Source: Cystobacter ferrugineus
GTDB taxonomy: Bacteria > Myxococcota > Myxococcia > Myxococcales > Myxococcaceae
Assembly (NCBI RefSeq): GCF_001887355.1
Contig: NZ_MPIN01000009.1
Span: 434,001-498,000, forward strand
Reading direction: 5' to 3'
Length of the DNA: 64,000 nt
The notes below the pieces were generated by a model. The model worked only from the letters and a program-made list of their open reading frames with translations, was not told where the DNA came from and searched no databases. Shown here piece after piece: positions 6,591 to 41,211 of the stretch. Position 1 is the first letter of the stretch, and every line of letters starts with the position of its first letter. The translations under genes were made by a program, and so were the position numbers.

Positions 6591-6637
6591 GGGATTTCTC
6601 CTGGTACAAGGAGATGAAATAGCACCGGCCCCCCGGA

Positions 6638-6657
6638 CACTCCGCTGTCCCGGAGTG
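6638..6657. repeat. 7-bp inverted repeat in the gap between operons
   Basis: CACTCCG, six bases, CGGAGTG. It lies 53 bases beyond the stop of the gene at 6710 and about 48 bases upstream of the lipoprotein start at 6590. It could be the end hairpin of the upstream operon (no T-tract is seen) or an operator for the lipoprotein genes. Confidence 0.35.
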
Positions 6658-6709
6658 CCAGCCGTCGTTGGATTGGAATCACTTGCTCGTGGAGTGGCTC
6701 ACGCCGCCA

Positions 6710-7009
6710 TCAGCGGGAAGGGCTCGCGCCTCGAGCCACGCGCTTGCCGCGAGGTCTTGCCAGGTTCTTGTCCGCGATGGCCACCAGGATGAGCACGAAG
6801 GAGAGCAGCCGGATGAGGTACACCCCGAGGACATTCTCGTTCTCGCTGCCCCGCAGGAGCATCATCATCACCCGGTGCAACGCCATCATCCAGAAGGAGG
6901 CGGCGAAGAATCCGAAGAAGCGATCACCTGTCTTCCTCCAGAAACGCAGGAAGAGCAGCCCCGCGACGAGGCACAGGCCCGAGGTCATGCCGGAGAGGAA
7001 ATCGTTCAT
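6710..7009 (-). CDS. small membrane protein, DUF5985-like (second copy)
   Basis: A 99-aa protein with three predicted membrane helices (about 9-20, 27-46 and 60-82), positively charged loops and an Arg/Lys-rich tail. It resembles its neighbour at 7006-7263 in length, helix layout and the (R/K)xGDRFF/GRD.L-type loops; both fit the small DUF5985 proteins common in myxobacteria. Its ATG overlaps the preceding stop codon in the four-base ATGA arrangement, so translation is probably coupled. The two proteins may form a complex. Function unknown. Confidence 0.78.
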   Translation of the reverse strand: MNDFLSGMTSGLCLVAGLLFLRFWRKTGDRFFGFFAASFWMMALHRVMMMLLRGSENENVLGVYLIRLLSFVLILVAIADKNLARPRGKRVARGASPSR

Positions 7010-7263
7010 TCGGAATCCCACACGAGGCCATACACCAGGAGCGCGAGCGCCAGGAACCCGGACAGGTTGCGCAACAACAGCAGATCCCGGCCGGGGAGGA
7101 TGATCTTGTCCAGCACCAGCAGCGCGTTGTTCACCGCCAGCCCGACGAAGCACAAGCTGCTCCACAAGAGCAGGCGCACCCGGTTGCGGGCATAGCCCCG
7201 CAGAAGCAGCACCGCGCAGGCGACGCTCGTCGCCGCGCACAGCAGGAAGACCGCGTCAGCCAT
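7006..7263 (-). CDS. small membrane protein, DUF5985-like (first copy)
   Basis: An 85-aa protein, almost entirely hydrophobic, with three predicted helices and a PGRDLLLLRN loop. The start overlaps the end of the winged-helix gene by eight bases. I chose the ATG at 7263 because a purine run, AAGGGGG, sits seven bases upstream; the ATG at 7269 would abut that run. It forms an overlapping three-gene unit with 7256-7657 and 6710-7009. This layout suggests that the cytoplasmic protein controls or senses through the two membrane proteins, but nothing in the sequence proves that. Confidence 0.78.
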   Translation of the reverse strand: MADAVFLLCAATSVACAVLLLRGYARNRVRLLLWSSLCFVGLAVNNALLVLDKIILPGRDLLLLRNLSGFLALALLVYGLVWDSE

Positions 7264-7657
7264 TGTCATCCCCCTTCTTCCGCAGCCGGAAGGCATCGGC
7301 GAAGGTTCGAATCTTGTCGACCGGCTTGGAGAAGATGAGGTTGATGACGGTCACCCGGCGCGTGGGATACGCCGTGGCCAGACCGCGCACCGCCTCATCC
7401 AGCGCGGCACTCTCCGGCCCGTAACGGAACCCGGCCTCGCTCCCGTCCGCCCGGGACACGAACCCGTCGTACGTCAGGTCCTCCAGCCGTTCACCCGCGG
7501 AGATCGGGGAGATCCGCAGCTCGCGCGCCACCGTCTCCGCGTTCCAGATCCTGTCCGGATGATGGAACAGCAGCAGGAGGATCTCCAGCTGCTCCACGGA
7601 GTCGATGTTCTCGGCGATGAGCCGCCGGACCTCTTCGGGAAGATCGCTAGCCTGCAA
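7256..7657 (-). CDS. winged-helix-like DNA-binding protein
   Basis: A 133-aa cytoplasmic protein. Residues about 18-70 have a helix-turn-helix layout (SVEQLEILLLLFHHPDRIW, then AETVARELRI, then ERLEDLTYDGFV). This matches the winged-helix pattern in which a first helix of leucines precedes a recognition helix and a short wing. The C-terminal third is amphipathic and ends in charged residues. It heads the overlapping block with the two DUF5985-like genes and follows the degenerate kinase gene by 60 bases on the same strand, so all four may be one operon. Targets unknown. Confidence 0.75.
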   Translation of the reverse strand: MQASDLPEEVRRLIAENIDSVEQLEILLLLFHHPDRIWNAETVARELRISPISAGERLEDLTYDGFVSRADGSEAGFRYGPESAALDEAVRGLATAYPTRRVTVINLIFSKPVDKIRTFADAFRLRKKGDDNG

Positions 7658-31891: not shown

Positions 31892-33635
31892 CGACGGACA
31901 GGCCCAGGCCCACGTTGCTCCACACGTCCTTGGTGGTGAAGAAGGGCTCGAAGACGCGCGAGCGGTGCTCCGGAGCAATCCCCTTGCCCGTGTCCTCCAC
32001 CTCGAAGAAGCCCTGCCCGTCGCGCTCCCCGGTGCGCAACGTGAGCCGGCGCTGCTCGGACTTCATCATCGCCGTGCGCGCGTTGGACACCAGCGCCAGC
32101 ACCACCTGCGACAGGTGCCCTGGATCCGCCCGCACCCGCACGGGCGGGCTCGCCAGCTCCAGGGAGAGCTGGATGCCCTCCGCTTGAACCTGGTTCTCCG
32201 TGAGCGAGAGCGCGTCGCGCAGCACGACCCCCAGGTCCACCGGGCGGAACTCGGGCCGCGCGCGTTGCTGGGAGAAGCGCAGCAGGTTCTGGGTGATGTC
32301 CTTGCACCGCTTGGCGCTCTGCTCGATCTTGCGCAGCGTCTCGAAGTCCGGGTCCTTCTCGCCGCGCTCGAGCATCATCAACTGCGTGTTGCCGAGGATG
32401 CCGGCCAGGGGGTTGTTGATCTCATGCGCCACGCCAGCGCCGAGCTGGCCCACCGCCGCGAGCTTCTGCGCCTCGAGCAACTGGCTCTGCGCCGTCTTCA
32501 ACTCCGCGGTGGCCTCGTCCACGCGGACCTTGAGATCGTCGTTCCAGCGCAGCAACCGCTCCCGGGCGCGCTCCAGCTCGCCGCCCATGGCATTGAAGGT
32601 GGAGGCCAGATCGCTCAGCTCGTCATCACCGTCCACCTGGACGCGCTGGTGCAGCTCGCCCCGGCTGAACGCCTCGGCGCCGGACACCACGCGGGCCAGC
32701 CGGCGGTTGAGCCGGCGGGTGAAGAGCGCCCCCACGCCGAGCAGCACCGCGAAGGCCCCCAGGATGAACAGCAGCACCGTGCGGCGCATGGCGCGCACCG
32801 GCGTCAGCGCGGACGCCTCGTCCAGGGACACCACCACCGCGAAGTCGGGCACCTGGGGCACCCGCGCGGTGCTCACCCTCAGGGCGAGCGGCTCCACCCG
32901 GAAGCTCCGTCCCGCCGTGCCGCCCGCCTCCAATGGCGAGGCCAGCGCCGGCTCCAACGTCTGCATGCGCCGTCCGGGCTGGGAGCTGAGCAGGATGCGT
33001 CTGGCCGGCACCTCCACCAGCTCGATCCGTCCGAGCTCGGGCCGCGCGCGCCGCGACAGGAGCGACTCCAGCTCGGAGAAGACGACCTCGGCGAGCGCGA
33101 AGGAGGAGTTCTCACCATCGGCGAGCTTCACCGCCATGGCCATCGCCGCCTGACCGGAGGGCCGGTGCGCGTAGACACCGCCCAGGAAGACCTGGCCCCG
33201 GCTCGCCAGGCGCAGCGAGCGCACCGGCACGGCCTGGGCGAGCGCCAGCGCCGCGGTGGGCTCGAAGTCCGGATGATCGTTCTTTCCCTCCGCCTGGAAG
33301 AGCGGCGCCCCCTGGGGTTTGCCCTCCGCGTCGACCACCAGCACCGCGCTCACCGCGTAGGACTGCCCGTAGAGCAGCCTCAGCCCACCCTCGAACTCCG
33401 CGGGGGTGACGTGCTCCCAGTCGATGAGTCCCGCCGAACGTCCGAGCGCCTCCGCCGTCTTCATCAGCTCTCCGGAGAGGGCCTCGGCGGTGGTCTCGGC
33501 GATGAGGCCCTGCTCGGAGACGATGCGGCGGGTCAGCTCCGACTCGGCTTCCGACAGCAGCGAGAAGCCCACGGCCACCAGGGGCAGCACCGTGGCGGCG
33601 AGCATGAAGAGGACGAGTTGCTGGTAGAGCCTCAT
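31797..33635 (-). CDS. membrane sensor histidine kinase (Cache-HAMP-HisKA-HATPase)
   Basis: A 612-aa protein with two transmembrane helices (about 8-26 and 283-303) around a periplasmic Cache-like sensor domain of 250 residues. A HAMP domain (about 305-358), a coiled coil, a HisKA helix with His in GVAHEINNPLAGI (about 400) and a HATPase domain (FEVEDTGKGI, VGLGLSVAWRV) follow. The N-box is VSNARTA. The kinase should be active. The start ATG overlaps the stop of the upstream hybrid kinase gene (ATGA), so the two are coupled and may signal together. Its last 31 codons lie in the direct repeat of the toxin island. Confidence 0.92.
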   Translation of the reverse strand: MRLYQQLVLFMLAATVLPLVAVGFSLLSEAESELTRRIVSEQGLIAETTAEALSGELMKTAEALGRSAGLIDWEHVTPAEFEGGLRLLYGQSYAVSAVLVVDAEGKPQGAPLFQAEGKNDHPDFEPTAALALAQAVPVRSLRLASRGQVFLGGVYAHRPSGQAAMAMAVKLADGENSSFALAEVVFSELESLLSRRARPELGRIELVEVPARRILLSSQPGRRMQTLEPALASPLEAGGTAGRSFRVEPLALRVSTARVPQVPDFAVVVSLDEASALTPVRAMRRTVLLFILGAFAVLLGVGALFTRRLNRRLARVVSGAEAFSRGELHQRVQVDGDDELSDLASTFNAMGGELERARERLLRWNDDLKVRVDEATAELKTAQSQLLEAQKLAAVGQLGAGVAHEINNPLAGILGNTQLMMLERGEKDPDFETLRKIEQSAKRCKDITQNLLRFSQQRARPEFRPVDLGVVLRDALSLTENQVQAEGIQLSLELASPPVRVRADPGHLSQVVLALVSNARTAMMKSEQRRLTLRTGERDGQGFFEVEDTGKGIAPEHRSRVFEPFFTTKDVWSNVGLGLSVAWRVVSEAGGTIELRTEVGQGTCFTVWLPKA

Positions 33636-36600
33636 CCCAAGCTCGCCCGCACGAAGGCCTGTTCGCGGTCACTGCGCAGGTAGACCGAGCCCGGGATGGC
33701 CTTGGCGCGCTTCTTCAGGTCCGAGGCCCGCCGCGCCAGCTCCGTCAGCGCCTGGCCGGGCACGCTGTCGCTGAGCACCGCCACCACCGACACGCTCATG
33801 ATGGGACAGCGGCGCGTGTCGCCGTAGCGCCCCTGCGTCTCGATGTAGCCGCGCTCCCGGTCCTGCTTGTCGTAGTAGAGCGGGATGAGCCGATCGAAGA
33901 CCTCGAGCGCGCGCTGACACACCCGGTCCACGCTCTCGGCGGAGGTGACGAAGACGAAGTCATCGCCCGTCATGTGCCCGAGGAAGTCGCCGGGCAGTCC
34001 CTCGCGGGCGAGCACCTCGCGCAGGAGATCTCCCGTCTGGCGGATGACGCCGTCGGCCTTCGCCAGGCCGTAGTAGTCCTGGTAGGCCTTGAGGTGATCC
34101 AGATCCAGGTAGCAGTAGGCGAACGGAGTGCCCTCGGCGGAGCGGCGTTGGATCTCCCGCTCGATGGCGCCCGGGCCGGGCAGTTGCGTGGTGGGCGAGG
34201 CACCGCGCTCGCGCTGCTTGCGGCGCAGCACCGCCTCCACGCGCGAGCTGAGCATCAACGCGTCGAAGGGCCTGGAGAGCACGTCATCGGCGCCGCGCTT
34301 CAGGGCGCGCACCTTGACGGTCGTGTCGGCCGAGGGGGCGAGGAAGAGCACGGAGATGGAGCCGCTGGCGCGCTCGGCCTTGATCTCCTCGAGGAAGTGG
34401 TAGCCGTCCCCATCGGGCAGTTGCGCGTTGAGCAGCAGCACGTCCGGGCGGTACTCGCCCAGGGCGCGGTGCGCGAGCGCCAGGGAGGAGGCCACGCGCA
34501 CCTCGTAGCCGAAGCCGCCGAGCGCCTCGTGGCAGAGCGAGGCCATCTTCTCGTCGGCATCCGCGAGGAGCACACGCCCCTGGGACTTGCCGGTGCGTCC
34601 GAGCACGAGCGAGTCCGCGGTGGCCACCAGGCTCTCGGCGCTCAAGGGCATGGACAGGAAGGCATCCGCTCCGGCCCGGAAGGCGCGCGGGCGCTCGTCG
34701 AAGGCGGAGAGGATGAGCACGGGCAGCATGCGCGTGCGCGGATCCTGCCGGAGCAGCTCCGTGAGCCGCATCCCATCGATGACGGGCAGCCGGGCATCCA
34801 CGAGCATCGCGTCCGGCGGCCGGGGGCGCGCGAGCGACAAGGCCTCCTCGGCATTGGGCACGATGCGCACCGCGTAGCCGCGCGCGCGCAGCAGCGCCTT
34901 GGTGATGACGGCGATGTTCGGGTCGGACTCCACGAGCACCAGGTGGCCGCGCGGCGCGGTGTCCTGCTTGCGCGGAGGGTCCATCCCCTCGGGCCGGGGC
35001 GGCTCGGTGACGGGCTCCAGGGGGAACACCGCGATGAAGCGCACCCCATCCGTGCACGGCTCGCTCCAGATTTGGCCGCCGTGCGCCTGCACGATGTTGC
35101 GGCAGATGGCGAGCCCCAGCCCCGTGCCACGCACGGTGCGGTTGGCCTGGGTGCGCGCCTGCTCGAAGCGGTCGAAGATGCGCTCCAGGTTCTCCTCGGA
35201 GATGGGCTCGCCGCTGTTCCAGCACGACAGGGCGAAGTAGCCGGGCACCGCCGAGGTGCTCTTGAGCGCCAGCCGCATCTGGCCGCCCTCGGGGGTGAAC
35301 TTGGCGGCGTTGGTGAGCAGGTTGTTGAGCACCTGGGTGATGCGGTTGGGATCCACCTGGGCGCGCTGGCCATGTTGCGGCAGGGCGGTGGTCATCGTCA
35401 CGCGGCGGGCCAGGAAGGCCGGGCCGTACTTCTCCACCGCGCGGCGCACCAGCTCGTCCACGTGCGTCCACTCGAAGTTCATCCGCAGCCGGCCCTTGGC
35501 GAACTTGGCCAGGTCCAGCAAGTCATCCACGATGGCGTTGAGCTTCTCCGTCGAGTCGCGCGCGAGCATCAGGTAGCGCCGCTGCTTCTCGTTCATGTCC
35601 GTGGTGAGGAAGTTGAGCACCAGGTCCAACGAGCCGGAGATGGAGGTGAGGGGCGTGCGCAGCTCGTGGCTCACCATGTGGACGAACTCGTCCTTGCGCT
35701 CCTCGAGCTGCTTCTGCTCGGTGACGTCGCGCAGCACCACGCACACGCCGCGCAGCGCGCCCCGTGCGTCGTGCACCGGCGTCACCGTGGTGTGGATGGT
35801 GCTCGCATCCAGCGTGAGCTCCTCGCGCAGCACCTGGGTGCTGCCCGCCTGCCAGCCGTGCACCAGCTCGAAGGGGTCGAACCCGAGCTTCTCGCGCAGC
35901 CGCCGTCCCGCGTCCTGGGGGGCGCCCTCCTCGAGCATCAGCAGGCGGCGCGCGGCGGGGTTGAGCACCACCACCTCGTTCTTCTCGTCGGTGAGCAGCA
36001 CGCCATCGGCCATGGAATGCACCATGCGCTCGATGAGCTGGCGCGACGCCTCCTCGGAGACGCGCAGGGCCTGGATGGCGGCGGCCGTCTGGTTGGCCAG
36101 CGTGTCCAGCAGCACGCCGTCCTCCTCGGAGTAGGCGTGCGCGCGCTGGGAGAAGAGCGACAGCAGCCCCACCGGACGGCCCTCGGCGGTGAGCGCCACG
36201 GTGAGCTGACTGCCCCAGACAACGGGAGCGGCGGTGTCCGGGGACGTGGTGCCCTCGACGTGGGTGATGACGCGGTCCTCGGACAACATCAGCCCCGAGC
36301 GCGTGCTCCAGGCGCCCAGCATGGACTCCTTGACGCCGAGCAGGGCCTGCTCGCCCATGGCCAGTCCCTGGCAGCGCAGGCGCAGGGTGGCCGTGCGATC
36401 CCACCCCACCGCGATGAGCGCCGCGCCACAGTCGTACGGCAGCACGCGCGACACCGCCACGAGCACCCGGTCGATGATGACGTCGTAGTCGAGCGGCTCC
36501 CCGGCGCTCGCGCGGCTCACCTTGTAGAGCACGTCGAGCGCCTCGACGCGCTGGTGGAGCTGGCGCAGGAGCCGCTCCTTGTCGCGCCGCAGCTGGGTGT

Positions 36601-36967
36601 AGTCCACCGCGTTCTTCACGGTGAAGACCAGGTCGTTCAGGTCCCATGGCTTGGTGATGTAGCGGTAGACCTGCCCCCGGTTGATGGCGGCGATGATGTC
36701 CTCGGGGTTCGTGTAGCCGGTGAGCAGCAGGGCCGTGACGTCGATGCCCTCGGCGCGCGCGGCCGTCACCAGTTCGATGCCCGTCATCTCCGGCATGCGC
36801 TGGTCGGTGATGAGCACGTCCACGGGGTGGCGCCGCAGCAGCTCCAGGGCCTCGCGACCCGAGGAGGCCGAGAGCACCTGGTAGCGCTTGTGGAACAAGC
36901 GCTGGAGGAGATCGATGACATCCGGCTCGTCATCGACCAACAGCAGGGTATGTCGGGTGTCGGACAC
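33632..36967 (-). CDS. hybrid kinase REC-GAF-PAS-HisKA-HATPase-REC-REC-GGDEF
   Basis: A 1111-aa cytoplasmic protein. REC1 (1-125; Asp in [10 protein letters not shown], Lys in ITKPWD); GAF (about 145-310); PAS (about 315-430); HisKA with [13 protein letters not shown] (about 440); HATPase with [10 protein letters not shown] and [14 protein letters not shown]2 (about 675-790) has [13 protein letters not shown]3 (about 800-920) has Asn in place of the phospho-acceptor Asp ([12 protein letters not shown]) and SRPF where KPF is expected. The last domain is GGDEF-like, but its signature is TGDDF, so cyclase activity is doubtful. It is divergent from lexA and overlaps the next kinase gene by four bases. 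Confidence 0.92.
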
Positions 36968-37971: not shown

Positions 37972-38664
37972 ATGACGTTTCGTCCGCTCCTGCTGGCCTG
38001 CCTGCTGGGCGTGTCCTTCGCCTCTCCCGTGCTGGCGGCGCCCCAGGCGCCCGCGAAGCCCGCCGCGTCCAGCACCGTCGCGAAGAAGTCCACGAAGAAG
38101 TCCGCGACGAAGTCCACGCCCGCGAAGACGAAGCGCAAGGCCGTGAGGCCCTCCCGGGGCCGACGGGTGGCCCAGCGGGCCGCGGGCCTGGTGGGCGCGT
38201 CGTTGGCCCGGCACCGCGTGCCGGATGACTGTTCGGGACTCGTGCGGCTCGCCTATCAGTCCGTGGGGGTGGAGCTGCTCTCGCACGGCACCCGCCCGGG
38301 AGAGAACGCGGCGAGCGCCATGTACCGGCGCGCCCAGGCCAAGGGCGCCCTGCACCGCAAGACGCCCCAGCCCGGCGACATCATCTTCTTCCGCGAGACG
38401 TATGACCGCAACCGCGATGGCCTGCGCAACGACGGGGTGACGCACGTGGGCGTCATCGAGTCGGTGGCGCGCGACGGCACCGTCGTCTTCGTGCACCGGG
38501 GTGGCAAGGGCGTGGGACGGGCGCGGATGAACCTGCGCCATGCCGGGCACCAGGGCGCGGGGGGACGCGTCCTCAACGACTACATCCGCAAGGCGGAACA
38601 GGGCGAGCGCGCGCGCCTCACGAGCGAGCTGTTCGTCGGGTACGCGTCTGCCACGCGCCTTTGA
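37972..38664 (+). CDS. NlpC/P60-family cell-wall hydrolase
   Basis: A 230-aa protein with a Sec signal peptide (about 1-22, PVLAAP). A very Lys/Ala/Ser-rich tether (about 25-65: KKSTKKSATKS) precedes an NlpC/P60 domain (about 68-205). The catalytic Cys is in PDDCSGLVRLAY, the His in THVGVIES, and the third polar residue is His in VFVHRG. It should cleave peptidoglycan stem peptides. The basic tether probably binds wall polymers. It is 181 bases after lexA and 149 bases before the graspetide precursor gene on the same strand; a functional link to the latter is not evident. Confidence 0.88.
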   Translation: MTFRPLLLACLLGVSFASPVLAAPQAPAKPAASSTVAKKSTKKSATKSTPAKTKRKAVRPSRGRRVAQRAAGLVGASLARHRVPDDCSGLVRLAYQSVGVELLSHGTRPGENAASAMYRRAQAKGALHRKTPQPGDIIFFRETYDRNRDGLRNDGVTHVGVIESVARDGTVVFVHRGGKGVGRARMNLRHAGHQGAGGRVLNDYIRKAEQGERARLTSELFVGYASATRL

Positions 38665-38813
38665 GACTTCACACACCCCTTGTTGAGCAGACGGCTATCC
38701 GGGCGGGAGAGCAGGTGAAAACCGGGGAGTGACTTTCCCCGCGTCACATCGGGTTCCTTCTTCATCCACCCAAGCGGGCAAGTCAGTTCCCGCTCAACCC
38801 AGGGAGGCAGGCC

Positions 38814-38981
38814 ATGAAGCAGGAGACGAATCGGAAACCCTTCTTCGCGCGGTTGCTCGAGGGCCAGGGAAGGAAGCCCCCCAACGGCGAACAACCCACG
38901 ACGCGGAAGTACCCCTCGGACAATGACGAGGAGGACACGCTGAAGTTCCCCTCGGACTTCGAGGATGTCGGAGGGGCGTGA
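38814..38981 (+). CDS. microviridin-type graspetide (omega-ester peptide) precursor
   Basis: A 55-aa peptide with an excellent ribosome site (AGGGAGG, six bases before the ATG). The leader has PFFARLLEGQ at residues 9-18, matching the PFFARFL helix of microviridin leaders, the docking site for the ATP-grasp ligases. The C-terminal part has two core motifs: TRKYPSDNDE (30-39) and TLKFPSDFED (42-51). Both fit TxK(Y/F)PSDx(D/E)(D/E), in which Thr/Ser form esters and Lys an amide with the acidic side chains. The product would be a caged protease-inhibitor-like peptide with two ring systems. No ATP-grasp ligase or exporter lies within the window, so maturation must be encoded elsewhere. Confidence 0.9.
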   Translation: MKQETNRKPFFARLLEGQGRKPPNGEQPTTRKYPSDNDEEDTLKFPSDFEDVGGA

Positions 38982-38990
38982 GCCCCGTCC

Positions 38991-40130
38991 TCAGGGGCAC
39001 TTCTGGGGCGTTCCCCCATCCCCCGCGAGGCGCGCGCACGCGGCGCGCACCACGGCCTCGTCCTTCAACTCCCGGGCGAGCGCCGCGGTGCGCCGCTGCA
39101 GCTCCGCGTCCCGGGCATGGTCCGGCTCGGCGCTCAGGTTGGTGAGGATGCGCAGGGCATCCGGCTTGCGCCCGAGCGTCGAGAGCAGCTCCGCCAGCTC
39201 CATGAGCTCACGCACGTCCGAGCCCGACACCGTCTCGAGCGCCTTGCCCAGCTCCTCCTCCGCCGCCTCGCGCTCGCCGCGGCCCAGGTGGATGCGCGCG
39301 ATGGCCACGTGGATGATGGCCCGATCCTTCACACGCAGGGACTCGCGGTAGGCCGCGAGCGCATCGCCCGGCTTGTCCAGGCGCGTATAGATTTCCCCAA
39401 CGAGCTCCCACAACGTGGGATCCCTCGGTGACTGGCGCGCCGCCTCGCGGTAGGACTCGGCCGCGGGGAGCAGTTGTCCGGCGCGCACCTGCTCGTCTCC
39501 CAACGTCGAGAGCAGCGCCGGATCCCTCACGCCCTTGGGGCCCGTCCACTCCCCGAGCATCAACAGGGCCTCGGCGTGGCGCCCATCGGCGATGAACACC
39601 TCGGCGGCGCGCAGCACGAGCGGGGCCTTGCCCGCGTCGGGACTCGCCTCGGCCGCGAGCAGGAAGTGCTTCACGGCGGAGTCCTTGTCGCCGCGCTTGA
39701 GATCCAACTCCCCGAGCTGCTCCAGGGCGTTGAAGTCCCGGGGGTAGATGGCCAGGGCCTTGCGCAGGGCGCTCTGGGCCTCCTCGGTGTGACCGAGCTG
39801 GGCGTGGATGAAGCCCACCCGGCTCCAGTTGGTGGAGCGCTTGGGATCGCGCTGGAGGGCGAGCTGGAACTGGGCGAGCGCCTCGTGGAGCTTGCCCATG
39901 GACAGGTACACCTCGCCCATGGCGGCGGGCAGGCGGGGGTCGTCCGGGGACAGCTCCTTCATGGAGCCGAAGGAGGCCAGGGCCTGCTCGAAGTTGCCCT
40001 GGAGGTACTCGGTGGTGCCCTTGATGTAGTAGCCCTCCGCCCGCTCCTTGGGGCCGGGCTTGGGAGGGCCGTCCTCGCAGCCCGCGAGCAGGAGGACGAG
40101 CAGGGACAGGACGCACCAGCGCGGATGCAT
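38991..40130 (-). CDS. TPR-repeat lipoprotein
   Basis: A 379-aa protein with a lipoprotein signal peptide (LLVLLLAGC, Cys about 18). It is made almost wholly of tetratricopeptide repeats: about nine 34-residue units from residue 30 on, with the typical G-Y-A-P spacing (YYIKGTTEYLQGNFEQALAS, AMGEVYLSMGKLHEAL). It is anchored to a membrane facing the periplasm and probably acts as a protein-binding scaffold. It follows the outer-membrane protein gene by 19 bases on the same strand. It is tail-to-tail with the graspetide gene, with nine bases between the stops. Confidence 0.9.
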   Translation of the reverse strand: MHPRWCVLSLLVLLLAGCEDGPPKPGPKERAEGYYIKGTTEYLQGNFEQALASFGSMKELSPDDPRLPAAMGEVYLSMGKLHEALAQFQLALQRDPKRSTNWSRVGFIHAQLGHTEEAQSALRKALAIYPRDFNALEQLGELDLKRGDKDSAVKHFLLAAEASPDAGKAPLVLRAAEVFIADGRHAEALLMLGEWTGPKGVRDPALLSTLGDEQVRAGQLLPAAESYREAARQSPRDPTLWELVGEIYTRLDKPGDALAAYRESLRVKDRAIIHVAIARIHLGRGEREAAEEELGKALETVSGSDVRELMELAELLSTLGRKPDALRILTNLSAEPDHARDAELQRRTAALARELKDEAVVRAACARLAGDGGTPQKCP

Positions 40131-40149
40131 GGGAGGGTGGGCTCCAGGA

Positions 40150-41211
40150 TCAGAAGTGCCAGACGATGCCGAGGTTGAAATCGAGGTTGAGGCCACTGCC
40201 CAGCCCCCCATCCGCCAGGCCGAGCGTCGCCTGGGCGATGTTGGTGGAGGCCTCGAGCTGCACGCCGAGGCGGTTGAAGAAGAGATACTCGAGGCCCACG
40301 AAGCCGATGACGGTGGGCAGCGGGCCCGTCTGCCGGAAGATGCCGAACTCGCCGAAGGACAGCTGCACGCCCAGCCCCAGGCCCCAGTACGGGCGCAGGC
40401 GGTTCTCGATGCCGTGGTAGTGGCGCAGCCCGAGCACGCCGGGCACCACGTTGAGTCCACCCTTGGAGCCCGTCTGCGTGGTGGTGATGAAGGTGACGCC
40501 CAGCTGACCGAACACCACCCACTCGGGATGGAATTGGTAGCCGAGCTCCACGTCGCCGCCGGGGTTGAACGAGGAGAGGTTGAAGATGAGGCTGTTGATG
40601 CGCAAGCCGGCGAGGAACGAGCCCTGGCGCGGGCGGAGTTCCTCGGGCATGGGCGACGTGGCGCGGGCATTGGGGTCCGGCACGAGCGTGGCGAGGATCT
40701 GATCCGCCAGGGACACGGCGGCGCGAGGCAGCGCCTCGCGAGCGGCCACCTCGGCGCGGGGCCGGAGCAGCGCCTGCCCGCTCTCCGAGTCCACCAGGGT
40801 GGCGGTGAGCAGGAAACGCGAGCCGAAGGCATCGAGCCGGCCGGTGACGACGTAGCGGGCCTTGGTGGCGCGCGCGGCTTCCTGTTCACACGAGCCATCC
40901 GCGCAGGAGCCCGCGGTGCGCACGGCCTGGACATCCGACTCGGTGGATACCGCGAGGCGGGGCGACTCGGCGAGCCGGCTCGCCATGAGCGCCGTCAGGC
41001 CGGGGGCTTCCTCGCGTGTCTCCGTGTCGGCCTTGAGGGGCAGGAGCACGAGGCGCATGGGCGCCGGCGTCTCCCCCTCGGGGGCGGGAGGCGCCGGGGA
41101 CTCGGAGGCGGGCCGGGCGTGGACGGCCGGGGCGAGCAGGAGCAGGAGCAGCAGCGGCGAGAAACGGCACACGCGCGACACTCTAGTGCCAGACGCTCCC
41201 GGGTGGGGCAT
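40150..41211 (-). CDS. predicted outer-membrane protein with periplasmic N-domain
   Basis: About 353 aa. After a signal peptide (SPLLLLLLLAPAVHA) comes a periplasmic alpha/beta domain (about 50-190): RLVLLPLKADTETREEAPGL, DVQAVRTAGSCADGSCEQEA and KARYVVTGRLDAF. This matches the TolB-N-like or CsgG-like fold of lipoproteins that assemble on membranes. The C-terminal 150 residues alternate like a small beta-barrel and end NLDFNLGIVWHF with a terminal Phe. The start is uncertain: ATG 41211 is used; GTG 41181 begins right at the signal peptide, and GTG 41253 overlaps the NlpD stop in a GTGA junction. Confidence 0.82.
   Translation of the reverse strand: MPHPGASGTRVSRVCRFSPLLLLLLLAPAVHARPASESPAPPAPEGETPAPMRLVLLPLKADTETREEAPGLTALMASRLAESPRLAVSTESDVQAVRTAGSCADGSCEQEAARATKARYVVTGRLDAFGSRFLLTATLVDSESGQALLRPRAEVAAREALPRAAVSLADQILATLVPDPNARATSPMPEELRPRQGSFLAGLRINSLIFNLSSFNPGGDVELGYQFHPEWVVFGQLGVTFITTTQTGSKGGLNVVPGVLGLRHYHGIENRLRPYWGLGLGVQLSFGEFGIFRQTGPLPTVIGFVGLEYLFFNRLGVQLEASTNIAQATLGLADGGLGSGLNLDFNLGIVWHF

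Follow-up and report, generated by a model that had tools for sequence, protein, structure and literature searches.

Can a microviridin precursor gene that stands apart from any modifying ligase still be in use, and which enzymes would then act on its product? The question is raised by a short open reading frame of a myxobacterium with a large genome, situated in the window, i.e. the whole 64-kb stretch of DNA that was analysed, which a sequence-only reading had taken for an orphan two-core precursor. We consider it probable that this gene is a working stand-alone precursor, separated from its ligases and modified in trans by a distant pair. This reading draws on sequence comparison and is well supported by the genomic data.

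The reading frame lies on the forward strand at 38814..38981 and comprises 55 codons and a stop, encoding a protein of 55 amino acids (MKQETNRKPFFARLLEGQGRKPPNGEQPTTRKYPSDNDEEDTLKFPSDFEDVGGA). A GGAGG ribosome site (38803..38807, forward strand) stands 6 nt before the ATG and is present in both orthologs too, and further upstream (38731..38771, forward strand) the blocks GACTTTCCCCGCG and TTCATC.ACCCA are common to the three aligned species and may belong to a promoter or a 5' untranslated region. All parts of the protein that follow are read from the forward strand. The leader helix expected for the family, PFFAR(F/L)L, is found as KPFFARLLE (PFFARLLE at 38838..38861), invariant in three species and identical in a ligase-linked precursor of the same genome on contig C7; x-Gln follows it in the orphan, a feature shared by all 27 short precursors that are not relics. 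Behind it lies a linker (38868..38900) that changes fast among the three species and contains no double-glycine cleavage site. Core 1, TRKYPSDNDE (38901..38930), and core 2, TLKFPSDFED (38937..38966), are spaced by two residues, and the core scan finds the pattern T-x-K-x-P-S-D-x-(D/E)-(D/E) twice with the six ring residues complete each time. A microviridin core carries two lactones and one lactam formed from these six residues, and the established chemistry predicts the rings T-D, S-D and K-E for core 1 and T-D, S-E and K-D for core 2.

Since many overlapping reading frames stand open in GC-rich DNA, openness alone is uninformative, and the claim is carried by profile matches and conservation. 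The orphan reaches 47.5 bits with NF033738 (microvirid_RiPP; cut-off 26, E 2.3e-12) and 42 bits with PF12559 (Inhibitor_I10; cut-off 21, E 1.1e-10), thereby exceeding both curated cut-offs. Comparison with all PDB chains gave one weak match (E 0.039), to the chain that the ligase entry 5IG9 lists under the name Microviridin. Judged by its sequence, 38814-38981 encodes the precursor of a microviridin, a type of protease-inhibitor peptide, and the gene, ribosome site, leader and two cores described in the sequence-only reading are borne out together with the assignment to the microviridin type.

That no ligase stands beside the precursor had been claimed as well, and this holds for the whole window. 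No relatives of MvdC or MvdD were detected in the 64 kb (tblastn, E<=1e-8, pieces longer than 80 residues), the genome-wide ligase positions include no RimK-type or MvdD-type match on the orphan's contig, and within about 8 kb of either ortholog (L031, L032) no MvdC/MvdD-type ligase is encoded. The genome as a whole does possess such enzymes, so that the proposal does not fail for want of a graspetide ligase, as it could have by its own terms. Contig C7 carries an MvdC-type and an MvdD-type gene as a pair (G000:C7:285661-287610) directly after a second two-core precursor (locus L025), whose sequence begins MKKDTTKKPFFARLLEEQELEQVTGG. The best model of the MvdC-type gene is TIGR04185 with 397.6 bits, below the equivalog cut-off of 425, and that of the MvdD-type gene is TIGR04184 with 430.8 bits, below the cut-off of 475, which is reached in none of the 96 genomes of the family. 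In the PDB the MvdC-type enzyme is closest to 5IG8 and 7M4S (AMdnB), and the MvdD-type enzyme to 5IG9; we take 5IG8 to be MdnB. Entry 5IG9 is MdnC according to the available part of PMC5934393. The orphan and the C7 cluster are located on different contigs of a draft assembly, and the distances to the contig ends place them at least about 310 kb apart.

The neighbourhood of the orphan was described as lexA, an NlpC/P60 hydrolase and a TPR lipoprotein, and these are what we find: lexA, an NlpC/P60-CHAP protein gene upstream (37972..38664, forward strand; profile match and locus comparison) and, convergent downstream, a TPR protein with a lipoprotein-like start (38991..40211, reverse strand). 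The gene is present in three of the four sampled genomes of the genus (its own, G000, as well as G001 and G002), with amino-acid identities of 73% and 69%, and in all three it occupies the same slot in the order NlpC/P60, precursor, TPR. In G003 the TPR and NlpC relatives sit at separate places and the orphan gene is absent. Of the copies expected beside lexA in related genomes, orthologs do occur in two of three congeners, but the conserved slot is defined by NlpC and TPR and not by lexA. A lexA/SOS link as a conserved arrangement was considered and rejected, lexA and NlpC being neighbours in this genome but separated by about 6.7 kb in G002. The TxK(Y/F)PSD motifs, whose absence from the orthologous loci would have spoken against the proposal, are intact in both orthologs. 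Beside NlpC homologs elsewhere (L090-L117, which are the loci for part of the 42 genomes with such homologs, with 1.5-kb flanks) no ortholog of the orphan was found at E<=1e-3. The window further contains a large hybrid sensor with receiver domains, GAF, PAS, histidine kinase and a GGDEF match (33632-36967, reverse strand).

To judge how the gene has been maintained we compared the three orthologous proteins column by column. Of 55 columns 18 vary, one of 20 at the leader motif and ring residues compared to 17 of 35 elsewhere (hypergeometric P 6.6e-4; of the four position sets tried, the other three gave P 0.003, 0.03 and 0.04, and the test ignores shared ancestry). None of the eight leader motif positions varies, and the sole varying ring position, E50, changes to D, which still allows bond formation. 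Nonsynonymous differences per pair amount to 5-11 in the linker, 1.5-3 in the leader, 0-2.5 in core 1 and 3-6.2 in the core 2 segment, where the first position (a spacer), the Y/F position, a free position and one acid position change. The gene as a whole evolves fast (dN 0.10-0.20, dS 0.21-0.27); with 55 codons there are too few sites per segment for a formal dN/dS selection test. Frameshifts or stops occur in none of the three copies. The pattern suggests more than chance, with variation avoiding the leader motif and the ring residues.

The orphan is not a single case. The 96 genomes of the family were searched with NF033738 and TIGR04184 and the precursor loci were then read, which yielded 28 short precursors: 17 beside MvdC/MvdD pairs (at 16 loci), 10 orphans and one relic. 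The tally omits seven giant multi-core genes (L068, L075, L077, L082, L084, L087, L130), locus L086 of G094, which matches the profile below cut-off and is not a precursor, as well as L141 (a short precursor with two cores) and L142, both from outside the family. A precursor was called an orphan if the 6-8 kb fetched to its left and to its right contained no ligase piece of more than 80 residues at E<=1e-8, and the calls were cross-checked against the genome-wide ligase positions. One must keep in mind that the profile search can miss precursors, as happened with L130 and the relic at L129. The 10 orphans are spread over eight genomes (G000, G001, G005, G007, G009 and G010 with one each, G002 and G006 with two each), and all eight carry an MvdC/MvdD pair elsewhere. 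By our reading of the TIGR04184 search a pair exists in 19 of the 96 genomes; short orphans were found in eight of these 19 and in none of the 77 others, a co-occurrence drawn from two genera and hence without phylogenetic independence. Across the 10 orphans 119 of 120 ring positions are preserved, if Ser is allowed for Thr in the first core of G009, and ligase-linked precursors do no better, with one ring residue missing in L072 and most of one core in L085. The sequence-only reading was right about the missing ligase, but the gene is not unique and represents one of ten ligase-less short precursors in the family. In the order 20 of 145 genomes match NF033738, all of them in this family, and in the phylum 22 of 195 sampled genomes do, two of them outside it (G182, G185). 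The ligase trees resolve terminal groups and not the deeper order, so ligase losses were not dated from them. At L028 (5650-6340, in G002) a single ligase pair is preceded by two precursor genes in tandem, whose cores differ.

Individual genomes offer snapshots of such a separation. In G001 a second precursor adjoins its ligase pair (L029). At the counterpart locus in G002 the flanks are collinear with 91-97% identity and the precursor is intact with both cores, but the ligases are missing except for approximately 181 and 140 bp, both remnants of the MvdD gene. The pair of G009 sits in a neighbourhood of the C7 type with flanks common to L025 and L064, and no precursor was seen beside the ligases at this locus. 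The only precursor found in G009 has its place at 9.63 Mb; if the 12.68-Mb contig is circular, some 3.3 Mb separate it from the only pair. If a microviridin is made from this lone precursor, it must be made in trans, and the question is directly testable in one strain. G009 is nevertheless an imperfect example, as the second core of the precursor lacks one ester acceptor and a further precursor may have escaped the profile search. Beside the cluster on C7, and conserved beside the G009 pair, there is a long reading frame (2288-5185 of L025, reverse strand) which, read by eye, appears to be a fusion of an AAA (ClpB-like) part with a release-factor-like C-terminus. Finally, G003 carries at L129 (approximately 6635-7620, reverse strand) a relic consisting of a leader and a broken core (MTTPPEPRPFFARLLDEQHPSDRDAGV) before an MvdC-like ligase of 57% identity, and no MvdD was found by a genome-wide TIGR04184 search and reading of the locus. 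The G003 locus shows that a microviridin system can decay.

Decay is also the main rival explanation for the orphan itself, which would then be a leftover precursor copy, intact only because it is recent and no longer modified or used. The decayed precursor of G003, the G002 precursor with its ligases gone but for remnants, the high overall dN and the missing double-glycine site all fit such a relic. One would hardly expect a relic, however, to keep every ring position bond-competent and the leader motif invariant in three species with the linker free to change, to remain without frameshift or stop in all copies, and to retain the ribosome site and the upstream blocks. The ten orphans of the family have moreover preserved their ring residues no worse than the ligase-linked copies. 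With the ring residues preserved in three species speaking against it, we regard this explanation as rather unlikely.

The same invariance of the leader could be explained if the peptide acted as a decoy, binding ligases via PFFARLLE in order to regulate or compete, with the cores being beside the point. A precedent might be seen in AMdnAi, by its name a variant of AMdnA, which competitively inhibits AMdnC with a Ki of 1.3 uM (available part of PMC5934393). A decoy would need no two intact cores, though, and their conservation together with the leader makes this explanation improbable. A further possibility is that the genome encodes another graspetide ligase that modifies the orphan, for instance the third, more distant MvdD-related ATP-grasp gene on contig C18 (177.8 bits), which adjoins the gene of a transporter with a C39 domain. 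The C18 enzyme shares only about 33-35% identity with those on C7, and in the small reading frame upstream, which is likely the precursor belonging to this enzyme, the leader is of another kind and has no PFFAR; that the C18 ligase should serve the orphan seems very improbable to us.

Modification in trans by the distant C7-type pair would proceed as follows. The MvdD-type ligase (MdnC-like) would bind the PFFARLLE helix and close two lactones per core, with the single lactam of each core being closed by the MvdC-type ligase (MdnB-like); both enzymes would act in trans. The predicted product has undergone up to six water losses and bears two adjacent tricyclic cages. A ligase pair that reads mainly a short leader helix would not need to be linked to its substrate. 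MdnA is a Microcystis peptide. MdnC binds the leader helix and is activated by it, and AMdnC of Anabaena processes MdnA and is activated by a piece of the MdnA leader supplied in trans; AMdnC further modifies the several cores of a precursor independently, the data suggesting no lactones across cores (all in the available part of PMC5934393). Regarding its origin, the orphan may descend from a cluster precursor that was copied, the copy then coming to depend on the distant pair, and some other precursors of the family may have become orphans by losing their own ligases.

As for leader removal, none of the three copies in the slot has a double-glycine site, whereas the remaining 24 short precursors that are not relics all have one ahead of the cores. 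This suggests that no C39 transporter would take off the orphan leader, which may instead be released in another way, perhaps by a protease cutting after L-E-x-Q. The residues after the helix read LEGQ, LEGQ and LESQ in the three orthologs. In class I microviridins the unlinked M1 protease NosP cuts at an L(E/A)EQ site, as stated in the available part of PMC13039773. The third residue, Gly or Ser in the three orthologs, differs from this motif, and a NosP-like cut is only a guess by analogy. Candidates for a dedicated leader protease or exporter were sought in the orphan's own genome, and none of the six C39 and seven M1-peptidase matches (six over cut-off) could be assigned.

The giant precursors left out of the tally deserve mention in their own right. 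The polyproteins at L084 (G052), L068 (G095), L075 (G092) and L077 (G090) comprise 358-471 codons with 12 to 16 cores, possess an N-terminal domain of approximately 110-125 residues that ends in PFF, and adjoin MvdC/MvdD-type genes, the loci L075 and L077 being cut by contig ends. In a different family, L142 (G182) is a frame of 517 codons which carries 10 PSD cores and whose N-terminal part is unlike theirs. For class II microviridins up to five cores are reported in the available part of PMC13039773. Multi-core genes at L082 (G014), L087 (G013) and L130 (G087) occur in genomes with a single ATP-grasp match of the MvdD (lactone) type. Lys is found in none of the eight cores of L082 and none of the nine of L087, and the last acid is kept only in the last core of each, so that the absence of the lactam partners coincides with that of the lactam ligase; tandem marinostatins resemble this pattern. 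In L130 all five cores have Arg for Lys and the last acid is mostly kept. The N-terminal domains of L068, L075, L082, L084, L087 and L130 have a conserved ERSGG(F/L)AG motif, and the Pfam family Emfourin, an M4-protease inhibitor, matched one of the six at E 0.21 only. If this hint is true, the giant precursors would be fusions of two kinds of protease inhibitor. The domain gave no PDB sequence match and no Foldseek match at E<=0.001; its AlphaFold model has a mean pLDDT of 72, i.e. middling confidence, and the best VIA Z is 4.9.

The microviridin family and its chemistry are known, and it is the dispersed pattern of precursors and ligases for which we found no report. Myxobacteria are already known to have microviridin clusters: PMC12766979 gives clusters that antiSMASH labels as microviridin as being conserved in Archangium, Cystobacter and Sorangium. 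One survey states in its accessible text that links in trans were not addressed (PMC8939145). In the literature, mainly freely readable papers, we found no account of ligase-less microviridin precursors or of in-trans modification of unlinked ones. Genome mining for graspetides commonly begins at the ATP-grasp gene and inspects the adjacent DNA. If precursors often separate from their ligases, this approach misses products, as it would for 10 of the 27 non-relic short precursors reported here.

Among the closest known systems is the cluster on C7 of the same genome: its precursor has KPFFARLLE, two cores and all ring residues like the orphan, but LEEQELEQVTGG before the cores, a spacer of 12 residues between them instead of two, and two ligases directly downstream. 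The AMdnA/AMdnC system of Anabaena sp. PCC 7120, a class II microviridin, likewise combines a common PFFAR-type leader with several TxK.PSDx(D/E)(D/E) cores and ligases of the MdnB/MdnC type for each core, but AMdnA lies in a gene cluster with its ligase and the orphan has none beside it (available part of PMC5934393). Class II precursors are marked by a double-glycine site, often with a C39 transporter as well, and the orphan has neither beside it; judged by core number it is of class II, without the class II double glycine. The class I microviridins processed by NosP resemble it in having no double-glycine site, and also in that a part of the pathway is unlinked, NosP being encoded 0.8 Mb from the cluster; they differ by a single core, by ligases within the cluster and by a cleavage site L(E/A)EQ in place of the LEGQ or LESQ of the orphan slot (both classes as described in the available part of PMC13039773). 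The arrangement at large may also recall another class of peptides. In the prochlorosins, which are lanthipeptides, one modifying enzyme serves precursors scattered in the genome. A similar scheme is conceivable here, and we put it forward tentatively: one or two ligase pairs would serve scattered precursors that outlive their own ligases, and the orphan without double glycine would be directed to another protease or compartment, giving two product streams. The scattered precursors are the feature in common with the prochlorosins; the chemistry and the enzyme are unrelated, and the many precursors there compare with one or two orphans per genome here.
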